In this document: piece by piece, positions 41,429-55,818 of the stretch
Position numbering within the stretch: position 1 is the first letter of the stretch
Layout of the letters: each line of letters starts with the position of its first letter
NCBI GenBank assembly: GCA_003151825.1
Contig: PLYO01000021.1
Span: 1 to 64,000, forward strand
Direction of reading: 5' to 3'
Origin: Ignavibacteriota bacterium
Lineage (GTDB): Bacteria; Bacteroidota; Ignavibacteria; Palsa-1295
Length of the DNA stretch: 64,000 bases
Translations under genes and position numbers: made by a program
The notes under the pieces: model-generated
Database searches by the model: none
Told to the model about the DNA's origin: nothing
The model's input: only the letters and a program-made list of their open reading frames with translations

Positions 41429-43630
41429 TCATTCTCCCGCAACGATGGGAATACGCTCGTGAAGGTTTAGTTTGTTCGAAGTAATCTCGCAGACATAAAC
41501 CCCGTTTGCAAGGCCGCGACGCTCGATACGAACCGAGTATGGCCCCGCGGAAAATTCGCTTGATGCAACGTGCTGGACCACCCGCCCAAGTTCGTCATAG
41601 AGCGTCATTGTGATATCGGCGGTTTCGGGAACCGAAAAGTTGATCGTGGTATATGCTGAGAATGGGTTCGGCGTAGCCGTTACGGTAAGGGAAAGCCCGC
41701 CCTGCCCAGCCACATCCGCCGCCGCCGCGCCCGCCTTAGGATAGAGCGTGAAGGACATTTCCGCCGACTCGATCCCGAAATAGGACGGAAGGTGAGAATA
41801 AATCTTTACCGTCCCGCTTATCGGATCGGTGAGCGGATTATCCGAAACGAGATGAATTTGTCCGCTACCGCCGATATCCACGCGGCCAATATCGAGGCCC
41901 ACATTCTCCGCCACATGAATGCCGAAGGCCGAGGCATCGGGATTGTTGGGAATGAAAATGGCGCTATCCAGATACGCCGGCTGGTATGCCGTGTTGTGAA
42001 AATTAAGCGAGTTCGTATGGCTATGCTCGATGGACTGTGGCGGGTATTCGATCCGGATTGCCCGCTGCGGCACGAGAAGCGAACCGGCGGTGTAGCCATA
42101 GGAAATGACATCCCCAAGACCGTAAGCCAAAATTGTGAAGCCTTGTCCCGGCGGCATCGTCGAACTAATTGTATGCACACCTGACGTCTGAAGCTGATCT
42201 TCATATATCGAAAATGACCGGCCTCCGACATTTCCAGGCACGGGTTTGAAGAAGAAGGGAGGAAGGAGAGTCCCGTCAATAGTAATTGTCCCTTGGGAAC
42301 TGGTGTCGGTCGCAATAATTACACTATTATAGTCGAACTTCATGTCGGGAGATGAGAAGAACGTGTAATTGTTGTACGTTTGGTCAACCGGAGGAACGAT
42401 GGAGAGAGAAGGATCGCCACCGCCTCCTACATAATAATCCGAATGTTCGATCTCTCCGACAAGGAGAGGCTTGCTCGATGAGGTCGATGAGACGAGCGTT
42501 GGCCCTTTAATAAGTGAGTCGCTGAAAAGACTCGGATGCAGTTTACTTCCTAAGGTAACCCATGACTTGCCGTTCACGGTCACAACGGTATTGGAGTCAA
42601 GCGCGAGCACACGCATGAGGTCTCCCTGCGGGCCGATCGAGTCTTCATTATCGAGAGCGATAGCATTGAGCACGAAATTATACCCCCATGTACTCGTCGG
42701 CGGCATGACTTCCAGCAGCATATCGCGGCTGATGCCCCCATTGCCGTTAGTCGAGTCCAAAGGTACCTCGGTCCGCTCATGGCCGCTATAAACAGTGATT
42801 GGATGATTTGCCGATACCGTTGAACCGGTAAGATCGAGACCTGAGTCGTTAGCGTTGGTTTGTACTTGCACACATTGACCCTGTTGTAGTGTAACCTTGA
42901 ATGGCACTCCGGCAGCATTGCTACCTAAAGTCCGGGCTGATGGAGTAATGGTAACCGTTGTATTGTCTTGGAACGCGGCGACCGCGAACTGCGAAGATGT
43001 TTTAGGCGATGCGGATTGCGAATTGGGATAACTCATAATGCCGTAATCAGTCCCCGCCGATTGAGCGGAGAGCGCACAGAAGGCGTCCGCCGTTTCGGCT
43101 TTGAAATCCATGCCATAACAAACGATAAATGAAGTGGACTGGACTTGCACAACACGATTATCGGCCACCTCGTCGCTCGTAATCCAAAGGTCGTGCATCG
43201 TAACGTTCACGCCGAGCCCTTCATTGACTATGCTGTCGGTGATACGATAGGTCACTGACGAATTAGGCTGCATGAAGTAGACCTTATTCAAGGAAGGGTA
43301 CTGATTGGACGTGATCGTTACCGTGGCCGTGTCACCCAGCGTAGCGATGTAAATTTCAAGATAGCCATCGGCATCATCTAAAGGCGTTGTCGTATCGACA
43401 TTCTCTTCGAAGCAGAGCAAGAAATCCGTTCCGGCATTCGTCGGGGTGCTGGTGATGGACGGGCCACCGCAGTCAGGATTCAGCGTCGGATTATTATGTT
43501 GCTGCGCCCGCGCGGCGGGTGGCCGAGCGGCAAAGAATGCTATCGAAAGCGCAAAAAAGCACGACGCGAGCATGCAGCGAAAGGTGAATGACCGATCATC
43601 CACGGAGGGGATGCGATGTAAAGTAGTCAT
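41429..43630 (-). CDS. Large secreted protein: IgGFc-binding-like domain and type IX sorting tail (paralogue 1)
   Basis: The 733-residue protein has a signal peptide (ASCFFALSIAFFAARPPAARA). The IgGFc-binding-like body includes LCFEENVDTTTPLDDADGYLEIYI, VVQVQSTSFIVCYGMDFKAETADAFCAL and VYSGHERTEVPLDS. The sorting tail has ATPNPFSAYTTINF and ends ITSNKLNLHERIPIVAGE. It is a close paralogue of the protein at 44347, from which it is separated by dtd. The n-region (residues 9-16, SVDDRSFT) is encoded by a GTGGATGA-type palindrome. Ligand and role are unknown; adhesion is a guess. Confidence 0.75.
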   Translation of the reverse strand: MTTLHRIPSVDDRSFTFRCMLASCFFALSIAFFAARPPAARAQQHNNPTLNPDCGGPSITSTPTNAGTDFLLCFEENVDTTTPLDDADGYLEIYIATLGDTATVTITSNQYPSLNKVYFMQPNSSVTYRITDSIVNEGLGVNVTMHDLWITSDEVADNRVVQVQSTSFIVCYGMDFKAETADAFCALSAQSAGTDYGIMSYPNSQSASPKTSSQFAVAAFQDNTTVTITPSARTLGSNAAGVPFKVTLQQGQCVQVQTNANDSGLDLTGSTVSANHPITVYSGHERTEVPLDSTNGNGGISRDMLLEVMPPTSTWGYNFVLNAIALDNEDSIGPQGDLMRVLALDSNTVVTVNGKSWVTLGSKLHPSLFSDSLIKGPTLVSSTSSSKPLLVGEIEHSDYYVGGGGDPSLSIVPPVDQTYNNYTFFSSPDMKFDYNSVIIATDTSSQGTITIDGTLLPPFFFKPVPGNVGGRSFSIYEDQLQTSGVHTISSTMPPGQGFTILAYGLGDVISYGYTAGSLLVPQRAIRIEYPPQSIEHSHTNSLNFHNTAYQPAYLDSAIFIPNNPDASAFGIHVAENVGLDIGRVDIGGSGQIHLVSDNPLTDPISGTVKIYSHLPSYFGIESAEMSFTLYPKAGAAAADVAGQGGLSLTVTATPNPFSAYTTINFSVPETADITMTLYDELGRVVQHVASSEFSAGPYSVRIERRGLANGVYVCEITSNKLNLHERIPIVAGE
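43584..43603. repeat. GTGGATGA-type palindrome within a signal-peptide coding region
   Basis: GTGAATGACCGATCATCCAC has a hairpin with one mismatch in eight stem pairs and the loop CCGA. It encodes VDDRSFT on the minus strand, in the n-region of the 733-residue secreted protein. The reading frame (D-D-R-S) is the same as in the dtd copy. Confidence 0.75.
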
Positions 43631-43782
43631 CGGAGGTGTTTCTTATGGTTAAAATAAATAAGGAAGCACTGATCTAAGTCAATAATGATGTCATTGCTTC
43701 GTTGAGCAATCACGGCATCGAAGACTTAATTAGAGTTTCCATATTCTTCAACGTCGAACAACATAAGAATGATTAAAATTGA

Positions 43783-44280
43783 TTACCGTTCGAGCAGGAT
43801 GGTGACCGGACCCTCGTTTACGAGTTCGACCCGCATCTTTGCCCGAAAACGGCCCGAAGCGACTTTTTCCGTACCGAGACGAGCAATTAAATAGCCCAAA
43901 AATATCTCGTACATCATCTCGGCTTTCTCCGGCGGCGCGGCGGCCATGAAATTAGGCCGGCTGCCTTTCCGCGCGTCGCCATAAAGCGTAAATTGGCTCA
44001 CGGCGAGTACGCTTCCGCCAATATCGCTTACAGAGAGGTTCATTTTTCCCGTTTCGTCCTCGAAAACGCGCAATTTTGCCAGCTTTTCGGCCATCCACTT
44101 GGCGGTTTCGGGAGTATCCGCATCGCCCGTCCCAAGCACGCCAGCGACGCTTCCATCCCGAATTCCTACAAAAGCGACCAAACCCGGCCCGATTTCGCCC
44201 ACCACCTCGCTTTCCGTGGATGATCGGTCATCCACGACGCTAACGGACGCATGGCTAACCCGCTGTATAAGAATTCGCAT
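43783..44280 (-). CDS. dtd: D-aminoacyl-tRNA deacylase with palindrome insertion
   Basis: Dtd hydrolyses D-aminoacyl-tRNAs. The 165-residue protein starts [13 protein letters not shown]. It has the catalytic motif [17 protein letters not shown] and the C-terminal cross-subunit [11 protein letters not shown], in which the Gly-Pro is required. The family is usually ~145-150 residues. Here residues ~16-24 (VDDRSSTES), between ASVSV and EVVGEIGPG, replace the usual tight turn and are encoded by a perfect hairpin repeat. A second small expansion follows ([12 protein letters not shown]). The gene sits between two secreted-protein paralogues. Confidence 0.92.
44216..44235. repeat. Perfect GTGGATGA-TCGG-TCATCCAC hairpin inserted in dtd
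   Basis: The palindrome has an 8-bp perfect stem and a 4-base loop. It is read on the minus strand as V-D-D-R-S-S-T in the first beta-turn of Dtd, a place with only two or three residues in other members. It is the same family as the copies at 27593, 38962 and 43584. Confidence 0.85.
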
Positions 44281-44346
44281 CCGAGCGTTTTGTTACACCC
44301 CGCAATGGGAAAAGATGAAAGATAAAAGATGAAAGATGAAGGATTT

Positions 44347-46590
44347 TTACTCGCCTGCAACGATTGGAATACGCTCGTGAAGGTTCAATGTGGTTGACGA
44401 AATCTCACAAACATACACTCCGTTTGCAAGTCCGTGACGCTCGATGCGTATCGAGTACGAACCAGGAGAAAATTCGCTTGAAGCGATATGCTGGACGACG
44501 CGGCCAAGTTCGTCGTAAAGTATCATGGTGATGTCAGCCGCATCGCTGGTCCCGAGCCCGCGAGGGATGCTTTCGGGAACCGAAAAATTGATTGTGGTGA
44601 ACGTTGAGAATGGGTTTGGCGTGGCCGTTACCGTCAGGACAAGCCTGGAGGCTTGTCCCACATCCGCTGACGCATTTGGGTAAAGCGTGAAACTCATTTT
44701 CGCCGGCTCGATATTGAAATAGGACGGAAGATGAGAATAAATTTTCACCGTTCCGCTCACCGGGCCGCTGAGTGGATTATTCGAAACGAGATGAATTTGT
44801 CCCATGCCGCCAACATCCACGCGGCCAATATCGAGGCCCACATTCTCTTCCACATGGATGTCGAACGCCGTGGCATTCGGGTTGCTGGGAATGAATATCG
44901 CGCTATCGAGATACGCCGGCTGATAGGCCGTGTTATGAAATGAGAGCGTATTCGTATGACCCGGAGCCATCGACTGCGGAGGATAATCAATCCTAATCGC
45001 TCGCTTTGGGATGAGAAGCTCACCCGCCGCATAACCATACCCATTGGCAAAGCCAACGCCGTAGGCCAATATCGTAAAACCCTGTTCTGGCGGCGATGGC
45101 GTGCTGATGGTATGAGTACCCTGCGGCAACCCATACTCGCAGATGGAAAACTTCCGCCCATTTGCCACGCCCGGCACCGAAATGAATTTTCCGGCGGGAA
45201 TAAGCTTCCCATCGAGTGTAATGCTGCTCTGGCAATTGGTATCGGCTACAATGGTCACGCTTTGATACCGGAAGTTCGTGTCGGACGCAAGTGAAAAGGT
45301 ATAGCTATCGTTGGTTTGATCCACCGGCGGCACAATGGCTAAGAATGGATCGCCGTTGCCGGCATAAGTATAAGCCGAATGCTCGAACTCGCCGACTAAG
45401 AGCGGTTCGCTCGATGTAACGAGTGTTGGCCCTGTAATACTAAGTGTATCGCTGAAGTTATGATTCTGCTTACTGATCAGGGTATCCCATGGCTTACCAT
45501 TCACGGATACCACCGTATTGCTGTCGATCGCAAGCACCCGCATCAGATCCCCATCCGGGCCGATGGCCCCGGTGCTATCGAGTACAATGGCGTCGAGCAC
45601 GAAATTCTGGCCCCAGGTGCTGGTTGGCGGCATCGTTTCTAAGAGCATATCGCGCGTCACATACTGATCCGATGGACGGTAAAACCCATCGGGTATTTCC
45701 GTCTCCACATGGCCGCCATACACGGCGACGGGATTATTCGCTCTGATGGTCGAGCCGGTGAGATCGAGATGTGGGATTGGACTTTTAACACTTAAGGTAT
45801 CCGCCTGAATTTGCACGCACTGGCCTTTTTGGAGTGTGAACGTCTCGGGAATGCCGCCCGCGCTTTCGTTCAGGGTCAACACAGCCGGCGTAATGGTAAC
45901 TATTGTATTATCCTCGAACGCCGCGACCGCAAACTGCGAACTCGCGGCGTTTCCTTCCACGCCGCCGGTGGAACTCGGATAACTCAGGATGCTGTACTCG
46001 GTGCCCGAGTACTCTTCCGGAAGCGCACAAAACGCATCGGCGGACCAGCGCTTGTAATCCAGCCCATAACACACGATTTGCGAGGTAGCCTGCACCTGCA
46101 CCACCCTATTGTCGATCGCCTCGTCGGAAACAATCCAGAGATCGTGCATCGTATCGACTAAGCCGAGTGACTCGCGCAGCGTATCGTCCGATACGTCATA
46201 CGACATCGAGGAATTCGGCGGAAGGATAAAAACTTTATTCATTGCAGGATACCGGTTGCAAGTGATCGTTACCGTGTCGGTTTCGCCCAAAGAAGAGCAA
46301 TAAATTTCCGCGTAGCTTCCGCTCGAATACGTCGATTCGAAGTAGGGATCGATATTCTCTTCGAAGCAGAGCATGAAGAGCGTGCCGGCGTTCGTCGGGG
46401 TGCTGGTGATCGACGGGCCACCGCAATCCGGGTTTGGAGCGGGATTGTTAGCTTGCTGGGCGCTTGCCTCTGGAAGTAAGAAGTAAGATGTAAGAAGTAA
46501 GAAGAGGAACATTGCACATGTCGCAATCATCGTGGGCGATGAAGGCGTTGCTCGCAGCTTACCTACCCCATTTCTTACCTTATACTTCAT
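44347..46590 (-). CDS. Large secreted protein: IgGFc-binding-like domain and type IX sorting tail (paralogue 2)
   Basis: The 747-residue paralogue of the protein at 41429 shares LCFEENID, VVQVQATSQIVCYGLDYKRWSADAFCAL, VDQTNDSYTFSLASD, the bend RAIRIDYPPQSMAPGHTNTLSFHN and the tail ITSTTLNLHERIPIVAGE-like (EISSTTLNLHERIPIVAGE). Its signal core FLFLLLTSYFLLPEASA is encoded by an AAGTAAG-type repeat run. The start codon lies in the opposite run, five bases after the stop of a small membrane-protein gene. Likely surface-exposed. Confidence 0.75.
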   Translation of the reverse strand: MKYKVRNGVGKLRATPSSPTMIATCAMFLFLLLTSYFLLPEASAQQANNPAPNPDCGGPSITSTPTNAGTLFMLCFEENIDPYFESTYSSGSYAEIYCSSLGETDTVTITCNRYPAMNKVFILPPNSSMSYDVSDDTLRESLGLVDTMHDLWIVSDEAIDNRVVQVQATSQIVCYGLDYKRWSADAFCALPEEYSGTEYSILSYPSSTGGVEGNAASSQFAVAAFEDNTIVTITPAVLTLNESAGGIPETFTLQKGQCVQIQADTLSVKSPIPHLDLTGSTIRANNPVAVYGGHVETEIPDGFYRPSDQYVTRDMLLETMPPTSTWGQNFVLDAIVLDSTGAIGPDGDLMRVLAIDSNTVVSVNGKPWDTLISKQNHNFSDTLSITGPTLVTSSEPLLVGEFEHSAYTYAGNGDPFLAIVPPVDQTNDSYTFSLASDTNFRYQSVTIVADTNCQSSITLDGKLIPAGKFISVPGVANGRKFSICEYGLPQGTHTISTPSPPEQGFTILAYGVGFANGYGYAAGELLIPKRAIRIDYPPQSMAPGHTNTLSFHNTAYQPAYLDSAIFIPSNPNATAFDIHVEENVGLDIGRVDVGGMGQIHLVSNNPLSGPVSGTVKIYSHLPSYFNIEPAKMSFTLYPNASADVGQASRLVLTVTATPNPFSTFTTINFSVPESIPRGLGTSDAADITMILYDELGRVVQHIASSEFSPGSYSIRIERHGLANGVYVCEISSTTLNLHERIPIVAGE

Positions 46591-47637: not shown

Positions 47638-49176
47638 CTATACTTTTGCTCTTTTGGGCGGCTCCCAAGCTTTGACCCTTACATAATTCTGCTTAGGAGG
47701 TATCCGAGTGATCGCCTCGCCAGCCGCCAATCCGGGAAGATTCGCGTCGCCTCCGAGAATAGCCCGAAGAGCACGAGGTTTGTTTGCATTTGTATGAAGC
47801 GCAATTGCAATTCCAATATTTTGAAGAAAGTCGTCCTCTTCTTGATCAAAGTCGTCTGGTGATTGGGACATGAGCCATATCCCCACTCCCTTTGAGCGAG
47901 CAAGGCGAATAAGATTGGAGAGGGAAGGATGCTTGAAGCCTAAAACGCGACGGGCTTCATCAATTGCAATAATGCAACGGAAGGAACGATTACCTTCAGC
48001 ATCAGTGGGTGCATCTGGAAGACTCATAAAATACCTTTTTGCTGCATCAAGGATTAGGAATACGACCAGTTTTTGGTTTGTGTCAGAGCAATTATGTAAA
48101 TCAATTAGCCACGAACGCGAAAAGAATTCCTGAACATTATATTGAGGAACAAAGAGAGGATGGCCTGCTGTAAGATCATTGAGGACGGAAAGGAGTGTGC
48201 CCCCAGCTTCTTGCCTGCTCTCGCATTCCCGCTCAACGAATTCTTTTATGCGTTCAAAGGAGGTAGGGCCTTCCTCGCCCAAGGCAGCGGTAACAGCTTG
48301 CCTCAGAATATCCTTCTGGTTTGCGCCTAGTCTAGATATTTTTTCAAAACTGTCACGAAAAGATACTGCCAAATCATTCCTATCGCGTACGGAAGCGCTC
48401 TGCGAAACGAGAAAGTTTAGAGGCACAGGTGATCGTGGAACTTCAATATGCTCGAGACCAAGAGGAGAAATCAATTCTTGTTTTAGTGCAATGTCTCCCT
48501 TAGCAATATCAAAAAAGATAATCGGGCAGTTTGCTTGTTTCTTCACCTGACGAAGCAAGTTAAGACCTAAATGTGTCTTTCCGGAACCCGTACCTCCCAT
48601 TAATGCAAGATGTGGAGAGTAGCCTGGTGCATTACATGTCCAATCTACCGGCTTACCCGTGCTGATATCTGTTCCAGGATCTCCTATGCGCACAACAATT
48701 GGCCCGTTGCGTAGATTCTCAGTCGAAACAGCAGCCGTGCTTGAATATCTGCTGGCTGCGCCTTCTTGTACTCCCGCACGAGTTGCTAAGAAAACAAGGA
48801 ATGCATCAAAATCTTCACCAAGGCTTATCCAATCAGACCAAAGCAACTTCATCCCGCGATGCCAATGCTCACCGATAGATTGCTGAAGTTCTTTCATCTG
48901 TCCGAATGGAGCCTGACGATGCTGAGCGATCAACGCTACCCATGCAAATGGCTCGCCACCGAATAGCTGATTCCCCTTGATTATCTTACATAATTCTTGC
49001 CCTTCAATACTTGGAGGCGTGGTTGAATCAGCCAACGAGCGAGTAATGGCTAGACGCGCAGGGAGATACCTGGTTTGAGCGCCAAGTAATTGCTCAAACT
49101 TTTTGCCAAGGTCATCCGCCTCCTTGGTGGTGCTGAATGTAGTCGTTCCTATTTGTAAAAACGAAATATCTGGCAT
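47638..49176 (-). CDS. dndE: DndE-like domain fused to a HerA/FtsK-type ATPase
   Basis: The ~512-residue protein has two parts. Its first ~135 residues match the DndE pattern: LPARLAITRSLADSTTPP, GQELCKIIKGNQLFGGEPFAWVALI, HWHRGMKLLW, DFDAFLVFLA. The rest is an AAA+ HerA/FtsK-like motor with Walker A GGTGSGKT, Walker B IIAIDEAR and LMSQSPDDF. DndE normally is a ~110-residue DNA-nick-binding protein needed for phosphorothioation; the motor is an addition. GGAGG precedes ATG 49176, which overlaps the dndD stop (TAATG). The frame also allows five residues upstream. Confidence 0.8.
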   Translation of the reverse strand: MPDISFLQIGTTTFSTTKEADDLGKKFEQLLGAQTRYLPARLAITRSLADSTTPPSIEGQELCKIIKGNQLFGGEPFAWVALIAQHRQAPFGQMKELQQSIGEHWHRGMKLLWSDWISLGEDFDAFLVFLATRAGVQEGAASRYSSTAAVSTENLRNGPIVVRIGDPGTDISTGKPVDWTCNAPGYSPHLALMGGTGSGKTHLGLNLLRQVKKQANCPIIFFDIAKGDIALKQELISPLGLEHIEVPRSPVPLNFLVSQSASVRDRNDLAVSFRDSFEKISRLGANQKDILRQAVTAALGEEGPTSFERIKEFVERECESRQEAGGTLLSVLNDLTAGHPLFVPQYNVQEFFSRSWLIDLHNCSDTNQKLVVFLILDAAKRYFMSLPDAPTDAEGNRSFRCIIAIDEARRVLGFKHPSLSNLIRLARSKGVGIWLMSQSPDDFDQEEDDFLQNIGIAIALHTNANKPRALRAILGGDANLPGLAAGEAITRIPPKQNYVRVKAWEPPKRAKV

Positions 49177-51230
49177 TATCTTTTCCTCCAATAGCCTGTT
49201 TCAACGTGCGTATTTCCGATGCCCTCCTCAAGCTCTTCATATGATAAGTGGTACACTACAGAGAGCTTCTCTTCAATGCTCTTGTAATAACTACCCGAGA
49301 CCTCATCCGTTGCCGAAAGTAAAATTACCTGCCCCGGTTGATTTGCCCAGTGATCCAGCACATTCAAGCGATGTATCTCATCAAGTCTTGCCAACGGTGT
49401 ATCCACGACCATTGGAATTTCTATTTCAGAAACTTGAGCTATAGCTGAGATTAGCGAGATAGCGAAAATTTGGTTCTCACCTGCGGATGGGTCAAAGCGG
49501 CGAATGTCATTATCGAGGCGATCCATAAGACTCACCTGACAGTCGTCTGAAATTCGAATATGATCGAGAAGCTTTTTGTGAGCCAAAGCCTTATAGGTCG
49601 TTGTCATCGCGTCAGCAACATCTCGAACCTTTAGAGGATACAATTCTTGTATCAGTGTTTCTAGCATGATCGCAATTCTCTCTGCTTTATTCACTCTTGC
49701 AATAACTGGCTGAGACTTATCCTGCTGCTCCCGAACACGCTCATAGTCTGCGCGCTTGGAACTAAGTTGTGAAGAGAGTGCATCGGTACTTCTCTTAATT
49801 TCTTCTATTACTCGATTAATGCTACTCTCCTCCTCCTGTAAAGCCTTCATTTCTTCAGTGAGCCTCTCAACCTCAGCCGTTACGCTGCTTGTTTCTCGAA
49901 TTCTGGAATCTACAAGTCCTACTTCTTGCTCCGCCGAAGTCTGATCAGCCAATAACTGCTGAAGGTCACCCAGGGCTAATGAGTCTATTCGTTCAAGTGC
50001 AATTATGGCTAGCTCGCGCTCGCGCCCGATTAGGCTTCTGTGTAGATAGTAAGCAGCGCAATTGGCCGGAGCTGGATACCAGAGAGCTTCCCAGCTCTCT
50101 GCAATTGCCCTTTTCAACCATTCAAATTGGATGTCATTAAGTGGTGGTTTCGCTTCAAATCTACGTTCCTGAATTTTCTCACCAAATTCCGAGAGTCGCG
50201 CTTGCCCCTCCATCTTTCCTGCTTCCCACTTTTCTCGCGCAGCCTCGCCTCGCAGCTGATTGAGAGTCACATTGCGAAGCGTAGCACCTGCAATAATAAG
50301 CGCCAAGTCGGTCTGTAAAAATTCCGTGAGGCGATCACGGAGCCTCATTCTCTGTGCCTCAGCCTGCGATTTGCGTTCATATAACTCTTCTCTATTCGCT
50401 CTATTTCCGCCCGCTACAGAACGCAGACTTCTCATTTTACTCTCTTTCGATTGCAAAATTTGGCTGAGTCTCGGCTGGATTGCATCACTCTCTCTTTTTT
50501 TCTGGCTTATTTGCAACTCGAAGGCTTGAATTTCTTCCGCCAATATTTTAAGGGTTTCGCTCCCTGATCTATCTGTATTGCTACTGCGATTTGCAGCGTA
50601 GGAATTTAGATCATCGCGGAGTTCGCGGAGTGTTCCGATACCTAATAATCCCTCGATTCCCGTTCGGACTTGCACAGCCATGTCTTGGTTCGCAAGCCGT
50701 TGCACCTGCTCACCATCGAACAAGAAGAAAGGAGCAAGCCGAAACGGTATGAAAGTCTGAGCAATGTAATTGCTAAAAAACTCCTTCTTATCGTCGAGAT
50801 AGCCTACCCGCAGAGGTTGGTCACCATCTAGTATACGCACTTCTTCGTCATTTGGCCTGTGCCGTCCGTTACCGAGGAAATACCATTGCCGCGTAATCTT
50901 TATTCGCTTACCGTCGACCACAAATGTAACAGAAACACTCATATTACTCCGACCAGCTCGCAAAGCCCCTCCATAGAGTGCCCTGCTAAGAAACTCATCA
51001 TAACCTGCCTCCATGTTTTCAGTAGAATCTGAGAACGTTGCACGTGGAAGATATGCGAGGCCATCCTGTCCAAAGAGGCATAGGGTTAATGCCTCAAGGA
51101 GTGAGGTTTTGCCGTAGCCGTTGTGTGCTCCGATGAGAACTACGTTCTTTTTAGAAGTAGGACGGGGAAATTCGAAGCTAGCATCAACGTAACTTTTCCA
51201 ATCACGCAAGGTGATATTTTCGATATACAT
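49176..51230 (-). CDS. dndD: DndD, SMC-like ATPase of DNA sulfur modification
   Basis: The 684-residue RecF/SMC-like protein has an N-terminal Walker A (GAHNGYGKTS, from residue 34) and FFLFDGEQVQRL. A central coiled coil of ~300 residues (TAEVERLTEEMKALQEEESSINRVIEEI) follows. The C-terminal signature is PSAGENQIF (580s) and Walker B is VVDTPLARLDEIHR. This is the DndD arrangement. DndD provides ATPase activity to the DndCDE modification complex. It shares TAATG junctions with genes on both sides, so translation is coupled. Confidence 0.93.
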   Translation of the reverse strand: MYIENITLRDWKSYVDASFEFPRPTSKKNVVLIGAHNGYGKTSLLEALTLCLFGQDGLAYLPRATFSDSTENMEAGYDEFLSRALYGGALRAGRSNMSVSVTFVVDGKRIKITRQWYFLGNGRHRPNDEEVRILDGDQPLRVGYLDDKKEFFSNYIAQTFIPFRLAPFFLFDGEQVQRLANQDMAVQVRTGIEGLLGIGTLRELRDDLNSYAANRSSNTDRSGSETLKILAEEIQAFELQISQKKRESDAIQPRLSQILQSKESKMRSLRSVAGGNRANREELYERKSQAEAQRMRLRDRLTEFLQTDLALIIAGATLRNVTLNQLRGEAAREKWEAGKMEGQARLSEFGEKIQERRFEAKPPLNDIQFEWLKRAIAESWEALWYPAPANCAAYYLHRSLIGRERELAIIALERIDSLALGDLQQLLADQTSAEQEVGLVDSRIRETSSVTAEVERLTEEMKALQEEESSINRVIEEIKRSTDALSSQLSSKRADYERVREQQDKSQPVIARVNKAERIAIMLETLIQELYPLKVRDVADAMTTTYKALAHKKLLDHIRISDDCQVSLMDRLDNDIRRFDPSAGENQIFAISLISAIAQVSEIEIPMVVDTPLARLDEIHRLNVLDHWANQPGQVILLSATDEVSGSYYKSIEEKLSVVYHLSYEELEEGIGNTHVETGYWRKR

Positions 51231-51421
51231 TAGTGCTCTTCTTCTTCTAATAAGTTATCGAACTCCACAAATAGGCTTCTGCGATTCTTCGTACCCTGCT
51301 GGCTAAGTTCAGCTTGCGCTAACTGCTCCAAAATCTCGATTGAAACACCTATCTCGCGACACCTGCGTTTCGCGAGTTCCCTGGCCGCACCTTTCTGATA
51401 AATCGGTAGACTATTTTCCAT
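51230..51421 (-). CDS. Small dnd-operon protein between dndC and dndD
   Basis: This 63-residue protein is charged and helical (KGAARELAKRRCREIGVSIEILEQLAQAELSQQ) with an acidic tail (LLEEEEH). It has no signal peptide. It lies 2 bases after dndC and overlaps the dndD start as TAATG, so it is a genuine operon member. Short proteins in this slot have, as far as I recall, been annotated only as 'DNA modification system-associated small protein'. It could be an adaptor between DndC and DndD. Confidence 0.75.
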   Translation of the reverse strand: MENSLPIYQKGAARELAKRRCREIGVSIEILEQLAQAELSQQGTKNRRSLFVEFDNLLEEEEH

Positions 51422-51423
51422 AT

Positions 51424-52593
51424 CTAGTTGCTTTCTGACAATTGCTGGTAATACCTCTCTACGAATCGGTCGGCTTGCATTAGTGTATCACTCTCCCAGA
51501 TTTTTTTGATGAGTTCCACTTCTTGATCCGATATCAGACTAAAGCCTACTTCCTCCTGGGTGCGAAGAAGTCGTTCCATGATGCGTTTCCTCGCCTCTAT
51601 CGAGAAAGGTCCCGCGCCTGGTGTACCGTTACGCCTTTCGGTTTCTCGATAATCACGATGATTACGAATGCTTACTAACCAATCTCGAAAATCTAGAAGA
51701 GGTTCAAGATTCTCAGATCCGGCATCAATAAGACCTTCCATACTTCTATCTTTCGTTACCACAGTACACGTCCAACAGCCAAAACGGGCAGAACCAGTCC
51801 CGCAAGATGGCGCTTGGGAATGATCTAACACTAGCGGACACTCTCCCGCATTCGCGTTCCTATACACGGTAATCAGATCACGGTGGCTCCCACCCCATGG
51901 CGCTTGTCGCTGAAGTAGGACTTGCCAAACTTCATCCGTAGTGAAATTTAATATTGGCCTGTAAACCCAGCATCCATTAAGCTCGGTATGTCTATGATAT
52001 TTTTCGCCTTCAACGGTATGCTTCGCAATTGTTTGAGCTCTTGTGACTGATTCACTCGACCGGACGCCTAATAATAAAATTACCTCGCCGGACTTGCTAA
52101 CCTCACTGAGCACGTATGCTGACATTGGTTGAATTTTCATCCGGTCTGTGCACCATCGAAATTGCTTGTTTGGGCTTGGATATCCTCTCCCAATTAAGTT
52201 CACCCAAAACGTCTGTTCAACGGGGGGAGTAGTGATTACCGTTTTAACGGGGAGTCCAAGCGATTCAGCTCCTTCTCGAATTTTCTCAAGAGAGAGTTTT
52301 AGATGATGCATTAGAACAGGGGATTCAACTAATGTATCATTAGAAAGAACTATTATCTCACGGCGCCGCTCAGATTTTGGCAAATCAAGTATTGCCTCGA
52401 ATACCATGTGCGCCATTAACGTTGAATCCTTCCCGCCAGAGAAGCCGATTATCCACGGCAGCGATTGGGCCTCGCTCGTGTATTCCTCCTTTATCTCTGC
52501 AACAGCTAGTCGGTACTTAGTGGATAAGTCTAAAGCTGGCAAGATCGGGAGGAGGTCTTCGCTAATCATGGTCAAATCATTCATCGAAACCAT
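51424..52593 (-). CDS. dndC: DndC, PAPS-reductase-like enzyme of DNA phosphorothioation
   Basis: DndC activates the DNA backbone for sulfur insertion. The 389-residue protein has the PP-loop GFSGGKDSTL (50-59). It has the [4Fe-4S] cysteines Cys148 in FRWCTDRMK and Cys264/273/276 in SCGTGSARFGCWTC, with the DndC-type spacing 116-9-3. RSMEGLID follows, as in family members. It is the first gene of the dnd operon and shorter than many DndC proteins. No dndA or dndB lies upstream. The start may be ATG 52584 (MNDLTM). Confidence 0.93.
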   Translation of the reverse strand: MVSMNDLTMISEDLLPILPALDLSTKYRLAVAEIKEEYTSEAQSLPWIIGFSGGKDSTLMAHMVFEAILDLPKSERRREIIVLSNDTLVESPVLMHHLKLSLEKIREGAESLGLPVKTVITTPPVEQTFWVNLIGRGYPSPNKQFRWCTDRMKIQPMSAYVLSEVSKSGEVILLLGVRSSESVTRAQTIAKHTVEGEKYHRHTELNGCWVYRPILNFTTDEVWQVLLQRQAPWGGSHRDLITVYRNANAGECPLVLDHSQAPSCGTGSARFGCWTCTVVTKDRSMEGLIDAGSENLEPLLDFRDWLVSIRNHRDYRETERRNGTPGAGPFSIEARKRIMERLLRTQEEVGFSLISDQEVELIKKIWESDTLMQADRFVERYYQQLSESN

Positions 52594-52729: not shown

Positions 52730-53590
52730 GTGGGCTTTTATCCTCAATCGAATCGGTGGCAGTGCGGGCCGTTTGCGCTCAAGCATGCGCTGGCTATTGT
52801 GGGCCGGTTCGTGGATGAGGAGTCGCTTACCAAGGCTGCGCGTACCACCAAAGAGGGTACGGACGAGAAAATGCTTCGCCGCGCCGCCGAGCGCTTCGAT
52901 TGCCGATTGCTGGAAGTCCGCCGGTTTACCGAGCCGGCTGCGTTCAAGGCGTTGACCTCGGCTCTGGCGCTGGGCCGCGCCTGCATGATCTGCATCAATC
53001 AGTGGGGACATTGGGTCACTATCGTTGGATTCGATGCGAAAAGCGAACGTTTTGTCGTGATCGATAGCGAAAAGAACCCGGTCGTTCGCATTCCTGCGTG
53101 GAGCGAGCTGAAGCGCCGGTGGGTCTATAACGAATACGATCGCGATGGCAAATTAAAACAATATTACGACTTGTACGTCTTGCGTCCGAGGTTTCGGGTG
53201 CAATCGAAGGCGAATTTTTCGATCTCACGCGCGCAATTTCTGCGCAGGGCAGGGAATGTGCAGTTCATCAAGCATTTCGATGAATATGTGAGCGATCTGC
53301 TGAATATCGCGCGGCCCAGTCCATCGAGAGATGGCGGCAGCGCGGTTATCTCGATGGCGGAATTCCTGCGTCGGCATCGGAAGATGCTGTTAGAGACCGT
53401 CCGCTACTGGCACGAGCAGACGACGGAAGCGCAATTACGAAAAGTGCTCGCAAATATGCGCTTCGTCGCTGAAACGTATGGCCTCGTAATCCGTCAAGAG
53501 GACGAAAAGCGGACCATCGCCAGCTTCGCCGCGCTGCTCATGACCTGGGCCACGACGCACGAGCCGCTGGAGGAAGCGCTGTATGGCTGA
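52730..53590 (+). CDS. C39-like cysteine peptidase domain protein with unknown C-terminal domain
   Basis: Residues 1-~125 form a papain-like C39 fold: oxyanion Gln6, catalytic Cys12 in RWQCGPFALKHAL, His94 in WGHWVTIVGF and Asp112 in VIDSEKNP. There is no ABC transporter and no signal peptide. The next ~160 residues are helical and basic (FLRRHRKMLLETVRYWHEQTTEAQLRKVL) and unrecognised. The start is GTG. It is divergent from dndC, and whether it works with the Dnd system is unknown. Confidence 0.7.
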   Translation: MGFYPQSNRWQCGPFALKHALAIVGRFVDEESLTKAARTTKEGTDEKMLRRAAERFDCRLLEVRRFTEPAAFKALTSALALGRACMICINQWGHWVTIVGFDAKSERFVVIDSEKNPVVRIPAWSELKRRWVYNEYDRDGKLKQYYDLYVLRPRFRVQSKANFSISRAQFLRRAGNVQFIKHFDEYVSDLLNIARPSPSRDGGSAVISMAEFLRRHRKMLLETVRYWHEQTTEAQLRKVLANMRFVAETYGLVIRQEDEKRTIASFAALLMTWATTHEPLEEALYG

Positions 53591-53597
53591 TCGTATT

Positions 53598-53673
53598 GTC
53601 ATTCCCGCGAACGCGGGAATCCAGACCTCGGAGCTACGATAACCTTATGGATTCCCGCTTTCGCGGGAATGAC
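53598..53673. repeat. Intergenic palindrome (GTCATTCCCGCG type)
   Basis: GTCATTCCCGCGAACGCGGG and CCCGCTTTCGCGGGAATGAC are near-perfect inverted arms over 76 bp. This is a very common dispersed palindrome type. It lies between the C39-like gene and hslV, 24 bases before the hslV start. Confidence 0.85.
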
Positions 53674-53696
53674 ATTAGAAAGAATTATAATAGGGA

Positions 53697-54233
53697 ATGA
53701 AAATTAGATCAACTACCGTACTCGGTATCGTAAAAGATGGCAAAGCGGCGCTTGGCTCCGACGGCCAGGTGACGAACGGCGCGACCGTGATGAAATCGAA
53801 CGCGAAAAAACTTCGCGTGCTCTATAACGGTCAGGTCATCGCCGGATTTGCCGGCTCGACAAGCGATGCGCTTACGCTCTACGACCGCTTCAACAGCAAG
53901 CTCGAAGAATATCGCGGGAACGTTCCCCGCGCCGTTGTCGAACTCGGGAAAGATTGGCGGAACGATAAATATCTGCGGCGGTTGGAAGCGATGCTCGCTG
54001 TCGTAAGCAAAGATGGCGCATTCCTGCTTTCGGGAACCGGAGATGTGATCGAGCCGGAGAACGGCATCGTAGCTATTGGTTCCGGAGGGCCGTACGCGCT
54101 TGCCGCCGCGCGGGCGTTTATGGTGGCAAATCCGGAAATGTCGGCGAAGGACATTGTCGAGCAATCGCTGAAGATCGCCGGCGAAATTTGTATTTACACG
54201 AACTCACATATTACGATAGAAAGCTTGGAATGA
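53697..54233 (+). CDS. hslV: ATP-dependent protease subunit HslV
   Basis: HslV is the proteasome-like peptidase of the HslUV complex. The 178-residue protein has a five-residue leader before the catalytic Thr ([10 protein letters not shown]). It then has [30 protein letters not shown] and [13 protein letters not shown]. The leader must be removed to free Thr6. It is followed by hslU after a palindromic repeat. Confidence 0.96.
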
Positions 54234-54311
54234 GTACCGAGTAATGAGTAACGAGTACCGAGCGGATTATACCACTCCTTCTCGTTACTCATCACTCGGT
54301 ACTCGATACTT
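54233..54311. repeat. GAGTACCGAGTAATGAGTAACG-type inverted repeat
   Basis: GAGTACCGAGTAATGAGTAA on the left and TTACTCATCACTCGGTACTC on the right are inverted around a short centre. The unit fills the hslV-hslU gap and is open in the hslU frame back to 54244. Annotation programs might take it as an N-terminal extension of HslU. Confidence 0.8.
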
Positions 54312-54312
54312 T

Positions 54313-55818
54313 ATGGAAGAAATTACTACTACGTCCGAGACTTCGCAAACTGTCGAAGCGCCTCCTGAATCGAAGTTTCAGCTAACGCCGCACGAGATCG
54401 TTGCGGAGCTGGATAAATATATTATCGGCCAATCGAACGCGAAGCGTTCGGTGGCGATCGCGCTGCGCAATCGCTGGCGTCGGCAGCAGGTTCCCGAAGT
54501 GTTGCGCGAGGAGATCATGCCGAATAATATTATCCTCATCGGCCCGACGGGCGTAGGCAAAACGGAAATCGCGCGGCGTCTCGCACGGCTTGCCGGCGCG
54601 CCGTTCCTGAAAGTCGAAGCGACAAAATATACCGAAGTTGGCTATGTGGGCCGTGATGTGGAATCCATGATCCGCGACCTCACCGAGCTTGCGATCACGA
54701 TGGTGAAATCCGAGCAAATGGAAGCAGCGGAACCAAAAGCGAAAGCGAATGCCGAAGAGCGCATCTTAGATATTCTCGTCCCGCCCGCGCCGCAAATGCA
54801 GCGCGCGCAATCGCCGATGATGTTTCCCGGCGTACCCGTCAGTTCGACGATCACCAGAATGCCAAACGTGCAGCCACGGACGCCCGCGGAAACGCGCGAG
54901 CAAGCGGAACTAAACGAAAACACGCGCAACCGTTTTCGCGAAAAACTTCGCGCAAACGAGATGGACGAAAAGGAGATCGAAGTGGATATTCAGCAAGCGC
55001 CGCCCATTGCCTCGATGCAGATCATGGGGCCGCTCGGCGGCGCGGGCATGGATGAGATCGGGCAGAACATTCAGGATATTCTGGGCGGAATGATGCCTAA
55101 GAGGAACAAACGCCGCCGAGTTCCCATCTCCGAGGCGCGTGCCGTGTTCGAGCAGGAAGAAGCCGCAAAGCTGGTCGATATGGATAGCGTGGTGCGCGAA
55201 GCGATTGAGCGCGTGGAAAGTTCGGGAATTATATTCTTGGATGAGATCGATAAAGTCGCAAGCGGTTCCCGTCGCGATGGCGGCGGAGGTCCGGATGTCT
55301 CGCGCGAAGGCGTCCAGCGCGATCTACTGCCGATTGTCGAGGGATCGAATGTCAGCACACGTTACGGCATTGTGAAGACGGATCACATCCTTTTCATCGC
55401 ATCCGGCGCGTTTCATGTTACAAAACCGAGCGATCTGATTCCCGAATTGCAGGGCAGGTTCCCAATTCGCGTGGAACTCGATAGCCTTACTCAGGAAGAT
55501 TTCGTAAAGATACTGACCATCCCCGAAAACGCGCTGCTCAAGCAATATGCTGCGCTGCTCGCTACCGAAGGACTCGAAGTAGAATTCACCGATGACGCCA
55601 TTGTTGCGCTCGCGCGTATTGCATTCGAAGTGAATGAAGCGATAGAAAATATCGGTGCGCGCCGGCTGCATACCATTCTAACCACACTGTTGGAGCAAGT
55701 GCTGTTCGATGTCCCCGACATCGTAAAAGAGAAGCACCTGAAAGTTACCGCCAAATTCGTCGAAGACCGCCTCGATAAAGTGGTGCGTAATCGGGATTTG
55801 AGCCAGTATATTTTGTAA
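54313..55818 (+). CDS. hslU: ATP-dependent protease ATPase subunit HslU
   Basis: HslU unfolds substrates for HslV. The ~501-residue AAA+ protein has [17 protein letters not shown], Walker A GPTGVGKT (77-84), GYVGRDVES (pore loop), Walker [20 protein letters not shown] and a C-terminal LSQYIL that docks into HslV. The intermediate domain is larger than usual, with a Met/Pro-rich stretch. The start at ATG 54313 avoids the upstream repeat. A second copy of its last 24 codons lies 350 bp downstream. Confidence 0.96.

Follow-up and report, generated by a model that had tools for sequence, protein, structure and literature searches.

Fusions of HerA/FtsK domains to DndE, encoded beside a DndD-related ATPase, have been described by Rakesh et al. 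(2024; PMC10853773, section 22), and section 11 of the same paper reports that about half of the taxa have dndB and that about 7% have the complete set of eight genes. Here, we have analyzed a stretch of 64,000 nucleotides (hereafter, the window) from an Ignavibacteriota bacterium (assembly GCA_003151825.1, contig PLYO01000021.1, positions 1 to 64,000), which carries on its reverse strand, at 47638-52593, a set of four genes that encode DndC, a small protein of 63 amino acids (aa), DndD, and a fusion of DndE to a HerA-class motor (DndE::HerA). The window is a member of the published DndE-HerA/FtsK fusion kind: as in the clade-3 fusions of PMC10853773, DndE and the motor form one polypeptide, encoded by one open reading frame (ORF) next to the gene of the DndD-related ABC ATPase. 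The fusion is thus not new, although an initial annotation of this DNA, made from the letters alone, had set the motor joined to the modification factor apart from the known HerA-like DptH of the restriction set. Sections 11, 16, and 22 of PMC10853773 differ from our case in that they contain neither a split DndC, nor a link between the DndC tail and a small protein, nor an FtsK-alpha fusion of DndE. Judged from sequence comparisons, the 63-aa protein, which the initial annotation had listed in the operon but left unexplained, is a homologue of the C-terminal tail with which ordinary DndC docks on DndD, and DndC would therefore come here in two pieces.

With the canonical DndABCDE systems (E. 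coli and others) the window shares the DndC chemistry, DndD, and DndE, whereas the comparison sets of E. coli, Ruegeria, and Halorubrum have a DndC with its tail attached and a stand-alone DndE. Among plasmids, the closest full match to the fusion (37% identity over 98% of the query) is found in the megaplasmid of Methylorubrum extorquens AM1 (NC_012811.1, L102), an alphaproteobacterial plasmid that has the same four genes in the same order, with no layout difference seen and with nearly full-length identities of 53% for DndC, 39% for the small protein, 37% for DndD, and 37% for the fusion. The plasmid sets of Aureimonas AU20, Rhizobium phaseoli, and Burkholderia glumae show the same order (dndC, a separate small gene, dndD, fusion) and heads 35-36% identical to that of the window, but their motor groups with FtsK and not with HerA, and a TusA-like gene comes next in two of the three. 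In these FtsK-type sets, NCBI annotates a "DNA translocase FtsK" and a "DNA modification system-associated small protein".

Gene identities and related fusion loci

The window DndC matched TIGR03183 with 384 bits (cut-off 290). It has the PP-loop SGGKDS at residue 52 and all five cysteines aligned with C146, C262, C273, C280, and C283 of E. coli DndC, among which C146, C273, C280, and C283 have been assigned as ligands of the iron-sulfur (Fe-S) cluster (PMC12193691). DndD passed the profile of the DndD clade (TIGR03185, 269 bits; cut-off 246) and has intact motifs, i.e., Walker A at 34, SAGE at 582, and VDTPL at 609. These conserved residues support the phosphorothioation chemistry, and the production of phosphorothioate in this organism is predicted from them. 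The four coupled genes with a DndE-HerA fusion proposed initially were thus borne out by the ORFs and by TIGR03183, TIGR03185, PF08870, and PF01935. The best PADLOC label for the window DndD is PbeC (618 bits vs 297 bits for DndD), yet the protein contains no C.C motif, the hook that characterizes the CxC/PbeABCD systems, and a visual inspection of the ORFs that adjoin the operon, where no profile search for PbeA was made, revealed no PbeA-like gene. Such systems may be misnamed by automatic annotation.

To place the locus among its relatives, public genomes were scanned with two motor peptides, and the best 80 of 89 relatives were kept. These 80 loci are no census, since FtsK-type fusions would be missed, and three of them are duplicates (L023, L036, and L099 of L016, L017, and L018, respectively). 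Head and motor lie in one ORF in 71 of the 80 loci; the other nine have a partial fusion (L021, L030, L080, L089, L092, L098, and L100) or a fusion in broken frames (L050 and L063). An assembly error, which the initial annotation had named as a danger to the fusion, is rejected by these 71 single ORFs. A dndC gene with a fused tail is present in 44 of the 71 loci, while 17 have a stand-alone small gene plus a gene for a protein like the C-terminal domain of the RNA polymerase alpha subunit (RpoA-CTD) and sigma factors, without dndC. Two have the small gene only, two have both dndC with tail and the RpoA-like gene, and six have neither dndC nor the small gene, dndD being incomplete near the edge of the stretch in all six. 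At a threshold of 1e-10, the fusion was detected in 5 of 395 genomes of the phylum, that of the window included. The nearest motor by identity (50%) belongs to L021, which has only pieces of dndC and of the motor. Six other plasmid records match the fusion through the head only; nine plasmid regions were examined out of 2334 records with a DndC match, and L115 (Rhizobium RCAM05350) looked fragmented and was left aside.

The dndB gene is present in 15 of the 71 loci. A GIY-YIG-like gene, possibly a nuclease arm, is found in 14 of them, always together with dndB (L026, L031, L037, L045, L052, L056, and eight others).

The small protein and the tail of DndC

The PADLOC models of DndC match the window small protein at positions 408-454 of 468 (E 7e-4), and this protein is 38.6% identical over 57 aa (E 1e-10) to the separate small ORF of M. 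extorquens (9093-9305 of L102, our own ORF call in an unannotated record). A profile built only from tails, i.e., from 46 of 48 fused DndC tails (L023 and L036 were dropped), was searched against 8849 sequences and retrieved 28 stand-alone small proteins at E 1.3e-8 to 0.019. Otherwise, the list down to 0.019 held one truncated DndC, on top, and the E. coli DndC, and the best E of the reversed control was 0.053. The genes of 27 of the 28 small proteins, in which L018 and L099 represent the same locus, are directly upstream of dndD, and that of L035 is about 650 bases upstream. A profile-profile comparison of small proteins and tails gave 97.8% (E 8.6e-13), a test that is not independent, as it was the tail profile that had selected 23 of the 29 small proteins. 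The window protein itself scored 32.9 bits with a combined profile of small proteins and tails, which contains it.

The tail of E. coli DndC (433-482) has been modelled with AlphaFold3 on the globular domain of DndD, and the triple mutant L458D/E462A/R471A disrupted the binding of DndC to DndD in a pull-down (PMC12193691). In an alignment that used an E. coli DndC sequence with fitting numbering, the window protein has L, E, and R at the positions of L458, E462, and R471, and L458 is kept in all 29 small proteins and in 42 of the 48 tails. An AlphaFold2 model of a fused DndC, obtained with an alignment of 26 chosen proteins, had a mean predicted local distance difference test (pLDDT) score of 77.0, and its last part consists of helices.

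Several observations weigh against this homology. The weakest of the 28 matches (0.012, 0.013, and 0.019), which comprise the second Mesorhizobium protein, that of R. phaseoli, and that of L078, are near the best reversed control and must be considered unsafe. The tail-only profile gave E 2 on the window protein, and the tie of the window to the tail runs via the M. extorquens relative (8.9e-5) and the combined profile that contains the query. In addition, only L458 is widely kept: E is found at the E462 position in 10 of 29 small proteins and R at the R471 position in 7 of 29, and the tails have mostly Q and K at these sites.

A family of small proteins encoded upstream of dndD, as in the window, is described by the profile Sp-DndD (PF20306; gathering threshold 27.2). 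At E 1, the window protein remained without a match to this profile, and the M. extorquens protein was also below its reach, whereas all four scanned relatives from the plasmid FtsK-type and DndC-less sets matched it with 29-57 bits. The kinship of the window protein with Sp-DndD thus runs via M. extorquens and the tail profile. The term "Sp-DndD" was not found in the literature searched, in which no paper treats phosphorothioation, dnd, and M. extorquens together, and sections 11, 16, and 22 of PMC10853773 do not equate the small protein with the DndC tail.

A further lead comes from a Mesorhizobium DndD (L101 10141-12321), whose beginning appears to correspond to the second half of the small protein (43% identity over 30 aa). 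Its pairwise score was 64 with the window protein, the maximum being 39 in 1000 shuffles, and 40 with the M. extorquens protein, against a shuffle maximum of 39; nothing was detected with the small proteins of B. glumae, Aureimonas, and the second Mesorhizobium. A general fusion of the small protein to DndD was discarded (best E 0.087 in 92 DndD ORFs, the Mesorhizobium one giving no score). The simplest reading of these sequences would be a DndD-binding element that travels and is found at the end of DndC, as a free protein, or at the start of DndD.

The DndE head and the HerA motor

PF08870 (DndE) matched residues 16-113 of the fusion with 24.7 bits in the protein scan and with 28.4 bits, above the cut-off of 25, in the genome search. 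TIGR03184 gave 16 bits (cut-off 72), and phmmer with residues 1-140 against the PDB found nothing at E 1. The DndE match proposed initially for residues 1-140 is therefore present, but marginal for the window protein alone. The relatives make it firmer: a five-sequence fusion profile reached the archaeal DndE 7x4e at 6.5e-12, 5wtu at 8e-4, and 4lrv at 3e-3, a head-only profile of six sequences reached 7x4e at 0.013, the window head is 41% identical over 99 aa to a stand-alone Mesorhizobium DndE, and the M. extorquens fusion scored 31.8 bits with the DndE profile, above the cut-off. The structure prediction agreed with the initial proposal. In the AlphaFold2 model of the fusion (alignment of 44 chosen proteins; mean pLDDT 79.4, predicted template modelling score 0.66), the elements of the head include E13-17, H18-31, H37-49, E62-67, H76-86, H94-118, and H123-137 (E, strand; H, helix), i.e., the strand-helix-helix unit twice, which is the DndE layout as given by PMC10853773.

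The motor contains PF01935 (HerA) at residues 187-338 and HerA_C at 420-467, with intact motifs (Walker A GGTGSGKT at 194, IDEA at 405, RSKG at 427). The best Foldseek matches were the C-domain of DndH (7es4, E 1.5e-18) and HerA (4d2i, E 4.4e-12), with VirB4 also among the best. The fold is thus the same as that of the motor of DndH/DptH in DndFGH, but the N-terminal domains of DndH are different, and its gene is part of a set of its own (PMC10853773).

DndE has been described as a ribbon-helix-helix DNA binder without conserved catalytic residues (PMC10853773), whereas an archaeal DndE has been reported to nick DNA and to prefer nicked DNA (PMC9239217). The nick binding invoked by the initial annotation thus agrees with the latter report and is disputed by the former.

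Exchange of the motor among relatives

DndE-like heads were also found on FtsK/SpoIIIE motors (L103 11398-12939, L104 11379-12902, L116 7001-8527, and L101 15028-16518; the FtsK assignment of L116 comes from the tree only). The motors of B. glumae, Aureimonas, and R. phaseoli do not align with that of the window beyond the P-loop, the two of them that were scanned contain FtsK_alpha and FtsK_SpoIIIE (Pfam), and all three group with the FtsK of the window genome itself (100/100). The rows of the trees were chosen, 30 for one and 34 for the other. The DndD tree places the window next to M. extorquens (97/95), within a six-row clade (100/100) that contains two HerA fusions, three FtsK fusions, and one stand-alone DndE. 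This tree needs at least four changes of motor state, and a single clade for all the HerA-fused DndDs was rejected by the approximately unbiased (AU) test (p 5e-37, with long branches present). According to these trees the motor is exchangeable, since HerA, FtsK, or a stand-alone DndE occur within one DndD clade, by changes that may have been gains, losses, or swaps. It should be considered that Mesorhizobium 1 was coded as "none" though a DndE::FtsK gene follows, that the long branches of Meso2 and of the CxC row come together, and that the "Ecoli_DptH" row of the motor tree, its sole DndH-like row, represents a 348-aa ORF whose identity is uncertain and whose branch is long, so that we give this row no weight.

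A TusA-family sulfurtransferase gene is located directly behind the FtsK-type fusion in L104 (12899-13135) and L116 (8560-8763), and it is possible that it provides a dedicated sulfur relay.

Sets without DndC

In the DndC-less loci (e.g., L018 4750-10798 and L019 4688-10522), which encode DndD, DndE::HerA, and a stand-alone small protein, a protein of 637-975 aa is encoded upstream in place of dndC. The upstream proteins of L018 and L060 contain the RNA polymerase alpha-CTD and helicase-associated domains, as well as sigma-70 region 4, the match to which is weak in L060. PADLOC gave no match to these two proteins and a weak MzaA sigma-like match to the L062 relative. "Sigma factor" has no occurrences in the main text of PMC10853773, and a protein of this kind replacing DndC was not found in sections 11, 16, and 22 of that paper. 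These sets are possibly an undescribed sister system.

Operon layout, surroundings, and search of the genome

The features of the operon are collected in Table 1. The stop of the small gene overlaps the start of dndD by one base, as does the stop of dndD with the start of the fusion gene, and a gap of two bases separates dndC from the small gene, the reading frames of which differ. The G+C content of the operon is 46.5%, compared with 51.4% and 52.7% on its two sides. The right flank (52.73-57.3 kb) is 67-78% conserved in a same-genus genome (G164) that has no match to the fusion, which, together with the lower G+C, fits an acquisition from outside. No match to the left flank was found within the 17 kb of G164 examined, and thus no exact insertion boundary can be given. 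The promoter and terminator scans were at about shuffle level, and no convincing repeats flanking an insertion were found.

Table 1. Features of the dnd operon, with their positions in the window
Feature	Position	Strand	Description
dndC	51424..52593	(-)	389 aa; without the usual C-terminal tail; phosphorothioation sulfurtransferase; TIGR03183
small gene	51230..51421	(-)	63 aa; homologue of the tail that ends fused DndC and of Sp-DndD-type small proteins
dndD	49176..51230	(-)	684 aa; coiled-coil ABC ATPase; no CxC hook; TIGR03185
DndE::HerA fusion	47638..49176	(-)	512 aa from ATG; PF08870, PF01935, and HerA_C
DndE head	48766..49140	(-)	residues 13-137; strand-helix-helix twice plus C-terminal helix; AlphaFold2
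flexible linker	48718..48774	(-)	residues 135-153; pLDDT < 50
HerA-class motor	47662..48699	(-)	residues ~160-505; motifs and Foldseek

As to the neighbours, the divergent gene at 52730-53590 has a weak peptidase C39 match and is conserved in the same-genus genome together with the next two genes (53697-55818), which we read from the sequence as hslV-hslU. A 30-nucleotide inverted repeat, 93% complementary, lies at 53594-53677, between the C39-like gene and the next gene. At 41429-46590, two similar secreted-looking proteins of 733 and 747 aa are encoded. Their common C-terminal stretch presumably resembles a type IX sorting domain.

The lack of dndA, dndB, and dndFGH beside the operon, as proposed initially, was confirmed, and the search was extended to the whole genome. 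No DndB was detected by profile search (the control matched in 2 of 14), and the DndH profile found only the motor of the fusion (the control matched in 5 of 14), so that the locus, judged from DndH, does not belong to DndFGH. The DndF profile TIGR03238 gave no match anywhere, positive controls included, and therefore carries no information. Among 13 matches to the aminotransferase class V family, one is iscS, located on another contig in an iscR-iscS-iscU-iscA-hscB-like operon, in which the gene names beyond the desulfurase are our reading of the sequences. Since IscS can substitute for DndA (PMC10853773) and iscS is present, the lack of dndA is ordinary and not a peculiarity of the locus, as the initial annotation might suggest.

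Proposed mechanism and alternative explanations

We consider it fairly probable that the window encodes a Dnd phosphorothioation system in which DndE, the recognition subunit, carries a HerA-class translocase of double-stranded DNA in the same polypeptide. The housekeeping IscS would deliver sulfur to the Fe-S sulfurtransferase DndC, which would work as two pieces, a catalytic body and a 63-aa docking tail. The small protein would dock on the ATPase heads of DndD, at the site where the fused tails dock, and would hold, or stand in for, the link to DndC, the holding of the DndC body being presumed. The coiled coil-2 of DndD is sufficient to bind DndE (PMC12193691, section 8), and thus the motor would sit at the other end of DndD, away from the ATPase heads. 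There, a HerA ring, probably a hexamer, would encircle the DNA at the far coiled coil of DndD and might drive it past the active site of DndC, in a direction that we can only presume, so that site search and modification would become ATP-driven. That the pumping serves modification is what we infer; as no nuclease is encoded beside the operon, an alternative or additional role of the motor may be to exclude unmarked DNA. The sequence supports the gene identities, the intact motifs, the fusion, the common origin of the small protein and the DndC tail, and the exchange of the motor, which may serve modification or restriction. Two facts count against this reading. A close Mesorhizobium set has a stand-alone DndE, and thus the fusion is dispensable, although a second dndD and a DndE::FtsK gene follow in the same locus, so that this case does not show that the motor is. 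Moreover, the 17 of 71 loci that keep the small protein, DndD, and DndE::HerA without dndC indicate that the motor is not tied to sulfur chemistry.

The motor might alternatively be a defence arm, with DndC, DndD, and DndE marking self DNA and DndE::HerA barring, stripping, or stalling unmarked DNA without cutting it, as a replacement of DndFGH. The nearest fold to the motor is the C-domain of DndH, DndFGH has translocase and nickase activity (PMC11662687), the genome has no DndH besides the fusion, and the low G+C of the operon and the plasmid location of relatives are often seen with defence genes. We regard this role as rather unlikely, since no nuclease family appears among the matches of the four genes and the motor is joined to the modification factor and not to a sensor of the mark; a partial DndFGH elsewhere remains conceivable, as the DndF search was blank in the controls too. 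It is hardly credible that the head is a generic ribbon-helix-helix binder and not DndE: the window head alone is marginal with both DndE profiles and has no PDB match, but it is encoded directly behind dndD, resembles the stand-alone DndE of Mesorhizobium, has an M. extorquens ortholog above the cut-off, and leads to 7x4e once relatives are included.

As for the small protein, PMC10853773 predicts that the one found in the CxC systems acts as a negative regulator or a trigger sensor, and the Aureimonas protein has a weak PADLOC match to PbeB (E 0.0035). Such a role in place of docking seems improbable here, given the homology to the DndC tail, and the match of the same Aureimonas protein to the models of that tail is better (E 9e-4). 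A Mesorhizobium DndD also appears to start with the second half of the segment. The only PbeB tested (Halorubrum) scored 2.3 bits vs 1.7 bits for its own reverse, and a union of the small protein with the PbeB of CxC systems is thus unsupported. The differing, abutting frames of dndC and the small gene, and the fact that the tail is fused to DndC in all 46 loci with dndC and a full fusion, could also be explained by one gene broken by a recent frameshift or an assembly error. This is very improbable and was rejected, because four independent plasmid records (M. extorquens, B. glumae, Aureimonas, and R. phaseoli) show the same split; furthermore, the small gene stands alone in the DndC-less loci.

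A broader reading, which we judge evenly poised between acceptance and doubt, is that the Sp-DndD kind of small protein is a DndC tail cut loose that would serve as a general plug on the DndD heads. The core, in which DndD and DndE are combined with an interchangeable motor of the HerA or FtsK type, would then take different clients, either DndC, with its plug fused or free, or an RpoA-CTD/sigma-like protein without sulfur chemistry. The window would represent an intermediate state, with a DndC client and a free plug.

The natural split of DndC is also present in M. extorquens AM1, a culturable bacterium in which the tail can be tested as a separate protein. The presence of both HerA and FtsK motors behind related DndE heads suggests that some modification complexes have been selected for their ability to translocate DNA, a point of relevance to the way in which the sites of phosphorothioation are found.

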